Shown piece by piece: positions 9,788-13,679 of a stretch of 64,000 bases of DNA; within the stretch, counting starts at the first letter, position 1; each line of letters starts with the position of its first letter. The position numbers were made by a program, and so were the translations under genes. Origin of the DNA: Alphaproteobacteria bacterium (GTDB taxonomy: Bacteria > Pseudomonadota > Alphaproteobacteria > MPNO01 > UBA2964); contig WLWZ01000007.1 in assembly GCA_012103315.1 (NCBI GenBank), positions 1 through 64,000 on the forward strand. Reading direction: 5' to 3'. Under the pieces are notes generated by a model that saw nothing but the letters and a program-made list of their open reading frames with translations, was not told the DNA's origin and did not search any database.

Positions 9788-10594
9788 TTAGCCTAAAAAT
9801 TCGGTCACTTTATCGGCAACAGCGTCCGGTGCTTCCAGCTGAACCGCATGACCGCACCCATCAACAATCTCAACAGAACTATTCGGCAGACCTTTGCTAT
9901 AGGCCTCGGCATGGGTCTTTGGAACAAAGCTGTCATCATCGCCCCAGACAACCAATGCATCGCCCTTAAATCGGTAAAGTCGATCAACGAGTTTCTGGTC
10001 ATAAAAATATGGCGGCTTGAAGCCAAACCGCGCGATGCAGCGGAACGTTTTGTAGCGCAGCATTCCTTGCGGCTTACCTGTTAGTTGATCAGGTATCCAC
10101 TCTTCGGCCAGAGCGCCGTTACCGTCTGCAAACATCATATGTCGAATATCATCGATTTTGCCGTTAAGCGGCTGCACGGCCAAAAATAAGTCACCAATTT
10201 GCTCACCGGAGACAAACAAGCCAGGAGCACCGATCAATACGAGCTTACCAACCCGCTCAGGATTATGTGCCGCTATCTCTGCCGCCAGCCATCCGCCGAC
10301 ACAATTACCAACAATATCGATCTTCTCGATACCAAGAAAATCCATGACTTCAAGCGTATGAAAACGCAAGTCATCGATACCTTCTAGGCTGTTATCTTCA
10401 TCACTACCAACGCAGCCCGGCATTGCCGGAGCAATAACATGGCATTTTTCAGCCAAGGCATCGTGGAATGCACAATTGCTATCGACCAACCCATGCATGT
10501 CGGTGATACCATGTAGATACAGAACTGGATTGCCTGAGCCAGCTTCATAGAGATGTACCGTACGCCCCTGTACGTCGATATCACGCAGGCTCAT
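9788..10594 (-). CDS. Alpha/beta hydrolase with a Cys nucleophile elbow
   Basis: 268-residue alpha/beta hydrolase. The start MSLRDIDVQGR at 10594 is chosen over an earlier in-frame codon because it gives a normal domain start and a 14-base overlap with the upstream LLM gene. The oxyanion region YLHGITDMHG, acid residue region VVWGDDDSFVP and base GCGHAVQLE are present. The nucleophile elbow reads VGNCVGG with C98 where serine is usual (GxSxG). A Cys nucleophile is known from dienelactone hydrolase, so lactone or enol-ester hydrolysis is a reasonable guess. Translational coupling to the flavin monooxygenase gene supports a joint pathway such as oxygen insertion followed by ring opening. Confidence 0.88.
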   Translation of the reverse strand: MSLRDIDVQGRTVHLYEAGSGNPVLYLHGITDMHGLVDSNCAFHDALAEKCHVIAPAMPGCVGSDEDNSLEGIDDLRFHTLEVMDFLGIEKIDIVGNCVGGWLAAEIAAHNPERVGKLVLIGAPGLFVSGEQIGDLFLAVQPLNGKIDDIRHMMFADGNGALAEEWIPDQLTGKPQGMLRYKTFRCIARFGFKPPYFYDQKLVDRLYRFKGDALVVWGDDDSFVPKTHAEAYSKGLPNSSVEIVDGCGHAVQLEAPDAVADKVTEFLG

Positions 10595-11831
10595 TTGCGG
10601 CCTCCATTTCGTCAAGCATCGGGAAGTCCTTGGCGAAAAGTTCCGCTGAATCGCGCCGCATTGCTGGCATAACCTCTTCGGCAAATAGTTTCATCGATTT
10701 GCGGGCCAATTCATCTTTCATATTTCCGAACTGGAATTGGATCAGCAGGTTGCCGACCTTGGCGTCTTCCACAAATTCCCAGAGCTTTTTACGAACCGTT
10801 TCTGGGCTCCCAACCATGATGGAGTTCTTGCTTTCCAAATCCGCCCAATCCTTCGCATCACCGAGTAAATCTCCGCCAGCAGCGGCCCGCGATGAATCGA
10901 GGAAAGCTTCCCAAGAGTTCAAAGACTGAGATGGCACGCCGGGACCGAAGGTCATCGACCGGCCTTCTTTACGTAAATGCCCTTTGAGACAATTCCGCGG
11001 GAAGTAGAAAATACCCTCCTGGGACTCTGCCCTTGCCTGCTCATCTGTTTCTGAAACATAGACCGACAGCAACACACCCATCTTAAATGGCGTATACGTC
11101 TTACCGTGGTCTTTCATCACCCCGGCAAACTCTTTCGCGGCCATCCGTGTACCGCCACCATGTGACCGTGATGACAGAAAATAGCAGTAGCCTCGCTTGG
11201 CCACTTCGGCCATAGACTCAATACTTCGTGAACCTGGCACCCAAACATCGGGATGCGGCTGCTGTAATGGTTTTGGCCATATATTGACGTAACGCATCGG
11301 GTAGCATGGCCCTTCATGCGAGAACGGGCCGTCATCGGTCCAACTCTTCACGATAAGGTCAATCACTTCCCATAAACGACGACGCCCTTGCGGCGATGGA
11401 ACGTTGTAATTGAAGGCTTCTGGTCCGCCACCAACGGCAAAACCAGCGATCAACCGTCCATTCGACATATTATCGATCATCGCATATTCCTCTGCGACCC
11501 GAAGCGGGTTGAGGTAAAGCGGCGGCAAATTACCGAGAACAACGATCTTGCCGTTCTTCGTAATCTGGGTCAGGGCTGACGCCAAAAGGTTCGGCGATGG
11601 CATCAAGCCATAGATGTTTTGATGATGTTCATTAAGAACCATCCCGTCGAAGCCAAGCTCGTCGGCATAAGCCAACTGTCCGAGATATTCCTGGTACAAG
11701 CCCCGTGACTTTTCGCCATCCCACAGCTTGTTGGGAACGGTTACCCAGCCACTTTCGTTTTTTTCATCGAAATCATCTGGCAAATGGGGATATGCCATAA
11801 AATGCCAGCAAAACATTCGTACTGGTTGCAT
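10581..11831 (-). CDS. LLM-class (luciferase-like) flavin-dependent monooxygenase
   Basis: 416-residue member of the bacterial luciferase-like family, using reduced FMN or F420-type cofactors; a TIM-barrel enzyme in the cytoplasm. The N-terminal MRMFCWHFMAYPHLPDD-like strand is visible as PVRMFCWHFMAYPHLPDDF, followed by GFDGMVLNEHHQN, the GKIVVLGNLPPL strand, and the NGRLIAGFAVGGGPEAF flavin phosphate region. Length exceeds the common 330-360 residues because of a longer C-terminal part. The downstream hydrolase gene overlaps its end by 14 bases. Such proteins often catalyse Baeyer-Villiger or desulfurising oxidations; the substrate is unknown. Confidence 0.9.
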   Translation of the reverse strand: MQPVRMFCWHFMAYPHLPDDFDEKNESGWVTVPNKLWDGEKSRGLYQEYLGQLAYADELGFDGMVLNEHHQNIYGLMPSPNLLASALTQITKNGKIVVLGNLPPLYLNPLRVAEEYAMIDNMSNGRLIAGFAVGGGPEAFNYNVPSPQGRRRLWEVIDLIVKSWTDDGPFSHEGPCYPMRYVNIWPKPLQQPHPDVWVPGSRSIESMAEVAKRGYCYFLSSRSHGGGTRMAAKEFAGVMKDHGKTYTPFKMGVLLSVYVSETDEQARAESQEGIFYFPRNCLKGHLRKEGRSMTFGPGVPSQSLNSWEAFLDSSRAAAGGDLLGDAKDWADLESKNSIMVGSPETVRKKLWEFVEDAKVGNLLIQFQFGNMKDELARKSMKLFAEEVMPAMRRDSAELFAKDFPMLDEMEAANEPA

Positions 11832-11910
11832 GCGCCTCGTTCTCCCTGAAAGAGATAAATTACTTTCTTTCCATTATCATGCTCTGAGATCAGAAAACCG
11901 GCAACCCGAC

Positions 11911-11955
11911 GGCACAAAAAAACCGGGCATTCGTCAGGAACCCCCGGTTTGTGCC
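11911..11955 (-). terminator. Rho-independent terminator of the four-repeat protein gene
   Basis: On the minus strand a stem AAACCGGG / CCCGGTTT with a loop of about 15 bases is followed by a run of T, flanked by further pairing bases GGCAC / GTGCC. It lies 15 bases beyond the stop of the gene ending at 11970. Both arms and the T run are clear. Confidence 0.8.
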
Positions 11956-11969
11956 GCCCCTATAGATGA

Positions 11970-12863
11970 TCAGATCAATGCGAGATCAAGTCTCTCGTCC
12001 TCCTCTTTGCCAATTTCCATCGGATCAATCAAGTACGACCCCACCTCAGGTTTTGCGTCTGGCTTAGGCTTTGTCGTTTCATCAATCGCAACGATCTCAC
12101 GCACCAAATCCTTCACAAGGTCGCCAAATTCTGACTCCGACAGACGCGGATGGTTCTCAACAAAATTGCCGATCCGTTTTGCGAGTTTTTGGAACGCCTC
12201 GATATCACCGATTTCCGCCCCTTTGCTTTGCGCCGCAACACCGCGGACGAGTTTACCAACTGCTTCACCTAACGGCATTTCTGCGATGCGAGGATGGTCT
12301 TTCAAGAATCCGTGGGCTTCTCGCGCCGCTTCAGTCAGGCCAGCACCTCCAGTATCACCGACAATTTGTGCATTTATCCCGCGTGCCATCACGGCCACGG
12401 ATTTACCAAATTGTGAATTTTGAATTCGCGGATGATCGCTAAGAAATTTTGTTACTTTTTCAATAGCGTCGTTAAGGGCCTTCTTGGCTTCTTCACTCAA
12501 CTCCATGCCTTCGGACTTTGATAAATGAACGATACCCCGGATCAACTTGTTAACTTCTTTACCGAACGGGCTTTCCGCTAATCGTGAATGATTATCGAGG
12601 AAAGCATGGGCCGTTCGGGCTGCGACTGTTAATGGGTCTGCCCCCGGCGGCGTCACATGAGGTTTTGGTTCAACGGGTTTTAAGGCAATGGCCCGACGAG
12701 CTTCTTCGCTCAATCTAACTTCATCGACAGGCAGCCTTACCGGCCGGCCGCCATCACGTTCTGTCTCTGGCCGCGGGGTTCGCGCTTCATCCTGGAATGG
12801 CGAAACTCGATCAACATCTGATGCCCCGGGAAGTTGGGCTGTATTACTGCTAATGGGATACAT
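11970..12863 (-). CDS. Unknown protein with four copies of an FxxxHPRL-FG repeat
   Basis: Not recognised. The 297-residue protein has a proline/charge-rich N-terminal 80 residues, then four degenerate units at about 84-112, 137-165, 183-211 and 232-259. Each unit reads F-L/V-x-x-H-P/S-R-I/L, then about five residues, F/L-G, then a helix like KxVxxLVRGI. Units are spaced about 46-53 residues apart and separated by charged helices, so an all-alpha repeat array is likely. No signal peptide or membrane segment. The leader just upstream of the ATG on the coding strand contains repeated GTAGTA units and GGAG. A terminator follows, so the gene is monocistronic. Function unknown. Confidence 0.82.
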   Translation of the reverse strand: MYPISSNTAQLPGASDVDRVSPFQDEARTPRPETERDGGRPVRLPVDEVRLSEEARRAIALKPVEPKPHVTPPGADPLTVAARTAHAFLDNHSRLAESPFGKEVNKLIRGIVHLSKSEGMELSEEAKKALNDAIEKVTKFLSDHPRIQNSQFGKSVAVMARGINAQIVGDTGGAGLTEAAREAHGFLKDHPRIAEMPLGEAVGKLVRGVAAQSKGAEIGDIEAFQKLAKRIGNFVENHPRLSESEFGDLVKDLVREIVAIDETTKPKPDAKPEVGSYLIDPMEIGKEEDERLDLALI

Positions 12864-13076
12864 TTACTACTCCTACTACGCTACTACTCTGTTACGCTGA
12901 CTGACTGAATTCATGCTGTTGTCCGAATTGTTCAAACAGATCGATAATATTTTAAAGAAATTCCATCAGCATTTTTGTGAAATTTCAGACGTAATTTGTC
13001 CAAATACCATGAAGAATTTGCTGAAATTTTATATGAATTTTCGTTAACTCTAGAAAGCCATGGAAACCCTAATCAA
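12864..13076. other. Divergent intergenic region
   Basis: About 213 bases between the four-repeat protein (minus) and the NUDIX gene (plus). It contains the GTAGTA-rich leader of the minus-strand gene at about 12864-12895 and A/T-rich sequence at 12940-13040 that probably holds promoters for both. No convincing operator or RNA structure was seen. Confidence 0.4.
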
Positions 13077-13679
13077 ATGAACCAAGACGACGTCGAAATA
13101 GTCGAAAAAAAGAAACTGTATCGCGGCCACCTCACCGTGAATGAGTTCATCTTGCGGCATAAGCTGTTCAATGGAGGAATGACCAAACCCATATCCCGCG
13201 AAGTTGTTCAGCGAGCAGCCGCCGTTGGCGTTCTGCCTTATGACCCCATTCGGGACGAGGTCGTCCTTATTCGGCAATTCCGCGCTGGTGTTATGGTCGC
13301 AGACCATAACCCCTGGTTAATCGAAAGCGTCGCTGGTTTGGTCGAAGAGGGAGAAACAGCTGAGGATGTCGCCCGACGAGAATCCATCGAAGAGGCCGGG
13401 TGTGAAATTAGCGAGCTTCACCATATATGCGACTTCTTTGCCAGCCCTGGTATGCTGAGCGAATGTGTAACCATGTATTGCGGCATCACGGATACGACGA
13501 ACGCAGGCGGACTACACGGCCTTGAACAGGAAGATGAAGATATTGAAGCGATTGTGGTTCCCTGGTCACAGCTTTGCGACGATATCGACACAAAAAAGCA
13601 CTTCGATGCCAAAATTATGCTTGGGGTGATGTGGCTGACGCCCAGGCGTGAAGATCTAAGAAAGCGTTTTACTGGATAG
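13077..13679 (+). CDS. NUDIX hydrolase, ADP-ribose pyrophosphatase type
   Basis: 200-residue NUDIX enzyme from the chosen ATG at 13077 (MNQDDVEIVEKKKLYRG); an in-frame TTG at 12996 would add 27 residues with no family resemblance. The NUDIX box is visible as GLVEEGE followed by REsIEEAGC, with the metal-binding glutamates intact. The upstream IRQFRAGV segment and downstream FFASPGMLSE are typical for the NudF/ADP-ribose pyrophosphatase group, which hydrolyses ADP-ribose to AMP and ribose-5-phosphate. It is cytoplasmic. It lies 45 bases before the sulfurtransferase gene and may share its transcript. Confidence 0.88.
   Translation: MNQDDVEIVEKKKLYRGHLTVNEFILRHKLFNGGMTKPISREVVQRAAAVGVLPYDPIRDEVVLIRQFRAGVMVADHNPWLIESVAGLVEEGETAEDVARRESIEEAGCEISELHHICDFFASPGMLSECVTMYCGITDTTNAGGLHGLEQEDEDIEAIVVPWSQLCDDIDTKKHFDAKIMLGVMWLTPRREDLRKRFTG

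Follow-up and report, generated by a model that had tools for sequence, protein, structure and literature searches.

The window, a stretch of 64,000 nucleotides from the alphaproteobacterial contig WLWZ01000007.1, encodes on its minus strand (11970..12863) a protein of 297 residues whose core consists of four related units, each predicted to form a helical hairpin. The repeat family to which these units belong is narrowly distributed, real, and uncatalogued in the libraries searched. The gene is an uninterrupted ORF of 297 codons opening with ATG, and is supported by orthologues and by codon-position bias in comparison with the related genome G002. Four related units had been described in an initial annotation of this DNA, and they are borne out by comparison of the protein with itself, the best self-match scoring 113 and none of 200 residue shuffles more than 46. 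The top six ungapped self-alignment offsets (98, 46, 146, 48, 94, and 52) are all six differences between the positions of an FxxxHPR motif, which starts at residues 88 (FLDNHSRLAESPFG), 140 (FLSDHPRIQNSQFG), 186 (FLKDHPRIAEMPLG), and 234 (FVENHPRLSESEFG). The description of the unit itself needs revision: instead of about 29 residues at even spacing, units measure about 36-44 residues (typically near 40) and follow one another at uneven intervals of 52, 46, and 48 residues. The HPR of the motif is exact in units 2, 3, and 4 but reads HSR in unit 1, and the supposed common ending VRGI is found as IRGI, ARGI, VRGV, and VREI in the successive units. When 16 copies of the unit, drawn from five genomes, are compared, FG keeps its G in every one, and almost all share the F of FL and a V that follows FG.

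Self-match, unit comparison, and AlphaFold2 together delimit the four units, all on the minus strand: unit 1 at residues 77-116 (12516..12635), unit 2 at 124-167 (12363..12494), unit 3 at 173-213 (12225..12347), and unit 4 at 221-264 (12072..12203). They are preceded by an N-terminal tail that is predicted to be disordered (residues 1-76; 12636..12863, minus strand), within which residues 47-56 (window 12725-12696) read DEVRLSEEAR, and are followed by an acidic C-terminal tail of low confidence (11973..12071, minus strand) that ends in DLALI, with DLAF in three congeners. Neither cysteine nor tryptophan occurs in any of the three full-length proteins. Structure prediction, which the initial annotation had proposed as a check, returned four confident helical hairpins and disordered tails. 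The AlphaFold2 models rest on a two-sequence alignment and give, for the whole protein, a mean pLDDT of 62.5 with values below 50 for residues 1-74 and 262-297; block pLDDT lies mostly at 75-92 within the core, where each of the four units is modelled as helix, short helix, and helix. A core-only model reaches pLDDT 82.9, the short helix of unit 4 not being assigned. The small solenoid that had been suggested finds less support, as the hairpins are confident, yet how they are placed relative to one another is uncertain (pTM 0.38 for the whole protein and 0.53 for the core). The four hairpins are thus well supported as models, with their mutual packing uncertain.

Foldseek, run with the whole-protein model, found nothing at E 0.001 or better in the PDB or among viral models, its best match having E 0.17. 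The top VIA-align Z scores, 8.5 for the whole protein and 8.9 for the core, belong to generic helical domains lying over units 3 and 4, the best core overlaps (Z 8.2-8.9) covering 87-89 residues at an rmsd of 2.9-3.2; a single-chain four-helix bundle overlays at Z 7.6, and the program itself cautions that helical bundles scoring under a Z of about 13 may share no more than a common arrangement. Units 3 and 4 overlay such bundles as the de novo designed 7m5t and the re-engineered single-chain ROP four-helix bundle 1yo7, with 10-14% identity in the overlay, but the window protein is natural, has four units, and carries long disordered tails. Because the best overlaps are with generic helical-bundle chains over units 3 and 4, an arrangement as two bundles and one as a solenoid appear equally likely. 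Helical repeat proteins, whether designed or natural (DHR junctions, for example, among the Foldseek matches), likewise consist of helical hairpins set head to tail; the window protein differs from them in its uneven spacing and variable linkers, and all of these matches are weaker than E 0.001.

The function that we propose, tentatively and with slightly less than even confidence, is that of a lineage-restricted cytoplasmic protein with a four-hairpin helical core and disordered tails, acting as a non-enzymatic adaptor or scaffold. The four hairpins would have arisen by internal duplication before two genera split, and would form a rigid helical core, probably organized as two pairs of hairpins. 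The conserved hairpin turn F-L-x-x-H-P-R-[IL]-[AS]-E-[SM]-P-[FL]-G, repeated in each unit, could then serve as a docking edge, with further contacts added by the disordered N- and C-terminal tails in a presumed cytoplasmic location. The protein matches no enzyme family and contains no cysteine; together with its tails, predicted to be disordered, and the conserved turn that recurs in its units, this would suit a non-enzymatic adaptor. The four-site binding protein put forward in the initial annotation would be compatible with the present results. Against docking, no partner gene was identified, and it may be the folding of the hairpin, instead of binding, that keeps the motif residues conserved. 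The known kinds of repeat gain an uncatalogued helical hairpin, whose small size and clear limits make it suitable for structure determination.

No family in Pfam, NCBIfam, or PHROGs, and no PDB entry by sequence, claims the repeat protein, so the earlier statement that it belongs to no named family holds in these libraries. None of the Pfam families, including the solenoid and helical repeat families, reaches its curated cut-off in the window protein (P0001) or in its two complete orthologues (P0002 and P0003), and no enzyme family scores above its cut-off in Pfam or NCBIfam. The sub-threshold matches, among them DUF7503, HD_4, a CurL-like family, TIGR02187, and PHROG 30688, are mostly short and disagree between orthologues, and the PDB sequence matches, at E 0.04-10, go to designed proteins, ribosomal proteins, or short fragments; all were rejected. 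The ALF repeat (PF03752), likewise a short repeat of unknown function, scores 16.6 bits against a cut-off of 25.4, and its match at residues 111-142 lies across the linker that joins unit 1 to unit 2 instead of on the repeat unit. PADLOC returned one weak match in P0001 (PDLC02970, 16.6 bits, E 0.0019) and none in the orthologue P0003, which is probably a chance result for a helical query. A phage or plasmid origin was considered and set aside: tblastn against 50,697 phage and 72,556 plasmid records gave no match, and no relative was confirmed in viral contigs. A literature search for three motif strings returned nothing.

Orthologues are found in five of the 13 genomes of the organism's own taxonomic family, namely its own genome (G000), G002, G003, G005, and G010, and the same five are the only matching genomes among 27 at the level of the order. 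The G005 copy is taken to be locus L009, public record CALIBP010000293.1 from an uncultured alphaproteobacterium. No credible match beyond the family was found in samples of the class (385 genomes, four matching) and the phylum (398 genomes, two matching). The fourth class match, in G177, lies inside an ORF that by reading is taken for polynucleotide phosphorylase, and the second phylum match, in G685, is a single one covering half of one unit (18 of 36 positions); both are regarded as chance, as is a match in G021 (E 0.0015) that contains two internal stops and falls at the end of a Rieske-type ORF. A pattern search of genome contigs found a relative encoded in one of 42 stretches.

All four units are present in both complete orthologues, P0002 (76% identical) and P0003, which comes from another genus (38-43%). 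Units 3 and 4 are closest to the unit at the same position in G010 (55 and 63%), although window unit 3 matches window unit 1 just as well; G010 unit 1 scores 52% with window unit 1 as against 50% with window unit 3, and the unit 2 copies of the two genera are not especially alike (36%). Since units 3 and 4, and by a slight margin unit 1, best match their positional counterparts, unit similarity places the internal duplications before the split of the two genera. Between the window and G002 the gene differs at 54, 33, and 180 sites in codon positions 1, 2, and 3, respectively, so that 180 of the 267 differences are in the third position. The corresponding protein identities are 225/297 for the repeat protein, 400/413 for the neighbouring luciferase-like (LLM) monooxygenase, and 185/227 for the neighbouring Nudix protein; judged by these counts, the repeat gene evolves as constrained coding sequence, more rapidly than the LLM gene and at about the rate of the Nudix gene.

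The gene also has expression signals of its own. A ribosome-binding site, AGGAG (12870..12874, minus strand), lies 6 bases 5' of the ATG and is also seen in the alignment of relatives. An intrinsic terminator (11914..11948, minus strand) follows the stop codon as a stem and U7, with a fold z-score of -4.7 in the window, and in the alignment a terminator also stands 3' of the gene in G002, L009, G010, and G003 with differing stem sequences (four of the five, including the window's, were folded). It is absent from the list of a simple terminator scan, for which we blame the limit on loop length. The terminator of its own that the initial annotation noted is thereby upheld, and together with the divergent upstream neighbour it supports the view of a single gene. 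Rfam has no match in 11800-13100. A tandem run of the CTACTACG type (3.2 copies, window 12873-12898) abuts the ribosome-binding site just 5' of the start codon and is largely kept in relatives.

Variation among the other copies is considerable. A deletion and in-frame stops have disrupted the G005 copy (L009 4112-4779). In G003 the N-terminal region is followed directly by a unit-3-like unit at a contig end, with unit 4 at another contig end, and an 8-base overlap of the two ends would break the frame (judged by eye); this genome appears to have lost or rearranged units, its gene being split over the two contig ends. The repeat gene is dispensable, since it is broken in the congener represented by L009 and absent from others. 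Narrowly distributed orphan genes are common, and the gene could be a young orphan under weak constraint, in the course of being gained or lost and of no functional importance. The narrow distribution, the lost or rearranged units of G003, and a decayed G005 copy beside an LLM protein 99% identical to the window's all favour this, but the strong third-position bias, the four-unit architecture kept across two genera, and the retention of a ribosome-binding site and terminator make it unlikely in comparison with an adaptor or scaffold. The patchy presence of the family, with one broken and one rearranged copy, offers a natural case for the gain, reshuffling, and loss of repeat proteins.

The genes on either side are metabolic. 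Upstream and divergent lies a Nudix hydrolase gene of the YffH/AdpP subfamily (12996..13679, plus strand), whose product matches TIGR00052 with 159 bits against a cut-off of 79.6; it is listed from a TTG, and comparison with relatives suggests that the real start is probably nearer 13079. Downstream, 138 bp away, is the LLM monooxygenase gene (10581..11831, minus strand). Both the Nudix-side and the LLM-side neighbours are kept in all five carriers, counting a Nudix remnant in G010 and the two contigs of G003, and in the three non-carrier loci that were read (G007, G008, and G012) the LLM gene faces a sulfurtransferase gene, with Nudix and repeat genes both missing between them. Such co-occurrence would be expected if the repeat protein were an accessory either of the LLM monooxygenase or of the Nudix enzyme, which is ADP-ribose pyrophosphatase-like. 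However, the paired loss can be a single deletion, and G010 has an intact repeat gene beside which only the C-terminal part of a Nudix gene is open (L030 33-260, suggesting a remnant), so the Nudix/repeat gene pair is not obligatory. The LLM gene in turn persists without the repeat gene, and judged by their layout, with a divergent start on one side and a terminator on the other, each of the three genes forms its own transcription unit. An accessory role for either enzyme is accordingly very doubtful.

The interval between the repeat gene and the Nudix gene contains four degenerate 22-bp direct repeats of the form ATTT[CG]NNNAAA[AT]T-N9 (12940..13027, minus strand) and a weaker fifth copy (13049-13028, minus strand). 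At exact 22-bp steps, the window and G002 each have four copies, L009 has three, G003, where the array region (L059) is about 44 bp shorter, has two, and G010 has none. The self-match of the array exceeds all 200 dinucleotide shuffles in the window, G002, and L009, and is reached by 14 of 200 in G003 and 61 of 200 in G010. With one mismatch allowed, a pattern for a pair of sites matches, across 13 genomes, the repeat-gene locus in four congeners and three other places, and its reversed control matches nowhere in these genomes. The off-locus pairs lie 5' of a flagellin-like gene (G003), inside an ORF that by reading is a TauD-like dioxygenase (G008), and inside one that by reading is a phosphoribosyltransferase (G007); with two of the three inside unrelated ORFs, the pair is not confined to flagellar genes. 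The literature records MucR-type silencers of AT-rich DNA in alphaproteobacteria. The array possibly represents sites for a regulator phased on two helical turns.

The pair 5' of the flagellin-like gene agrees at 19 of 20 positions in G003 and at 17 of 20 in the G002 orthologue, a level reached by 5 of 1000 shuffles. This connection is a weak lead, noticed after the fact, to a motility-associated protein, be it a flagellar export substrate, an export chaperone, or an anti-sigma-like regulator, in which the disordered N-terminus with its D.VRLS..AR motif would act like the segment before FlgM-type helices. The motif persists in the G010 orthologue, where these residues are invariant columns, and flagellin (PF00669) is present in all five carrier genomes as against four of eight non-carriers (one-sided p 0.098 in the family and 0.040 in the genus), though this leaves four flagellated non-carriers, and of the four genomes that lack flagellin three are just 69-72% complete. 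The N-terminus may resemble that of FlgM (PF04316), which is likewise disordered with a V-x-L-S-x-x-A stretch. No search found this resemblance, however: Pfam gives no FlgM match at E up to 10 with the whole protein or the isolated tail, the organism's own genome has no FlgM at E 0.1, and the window protein has four hairpins, in place of the short helices of FlgM. Moreover, the repeat gene sits among metabolic genes, the site pair is absent from the four flagellin-domain genes of its own genome (best 13-16 of 20), and no pair of at least 17 of 20 was seen at the orthologue of the flagellin-like gene in G004. A motility role is therefore quite unlikely, and it is more speculative still that the repeat family serves motility as a multi-site adaptor within this single lineage of alphaproteobacteria and is switched by a regulator recognizing the 22-bp array and also its counterpart 5' of the flagellin-like gene. 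If the lead were true, the repeat protein would be a lineage-specific motility component.

As a marker of flagellar proteins in the organism's own genome, the looser motif D.V.LS..AR was rejected, with five matches against four for its reversed control; of the other proteins that carry it, one is OmpA/Pal-like by reading, those at L057 and L053 show nothing flagellar, and the fourth is at L054. The orphan flagellin-like gene itself runs from about 4190 onward in L072 (G003), from about 4250 onward in L075 (G002), and over 2890-3903 in L078 (G004). It adjoins a cupin gene (gentisate dioxygenase-like by reading) and lies in no flagellar cluster; its product has a start of the MAQ[LI]SFVTGS type, matches the flagellin-domain profile from a late position onward, and ends in a tail rich in Ser, Asn, and Asp.
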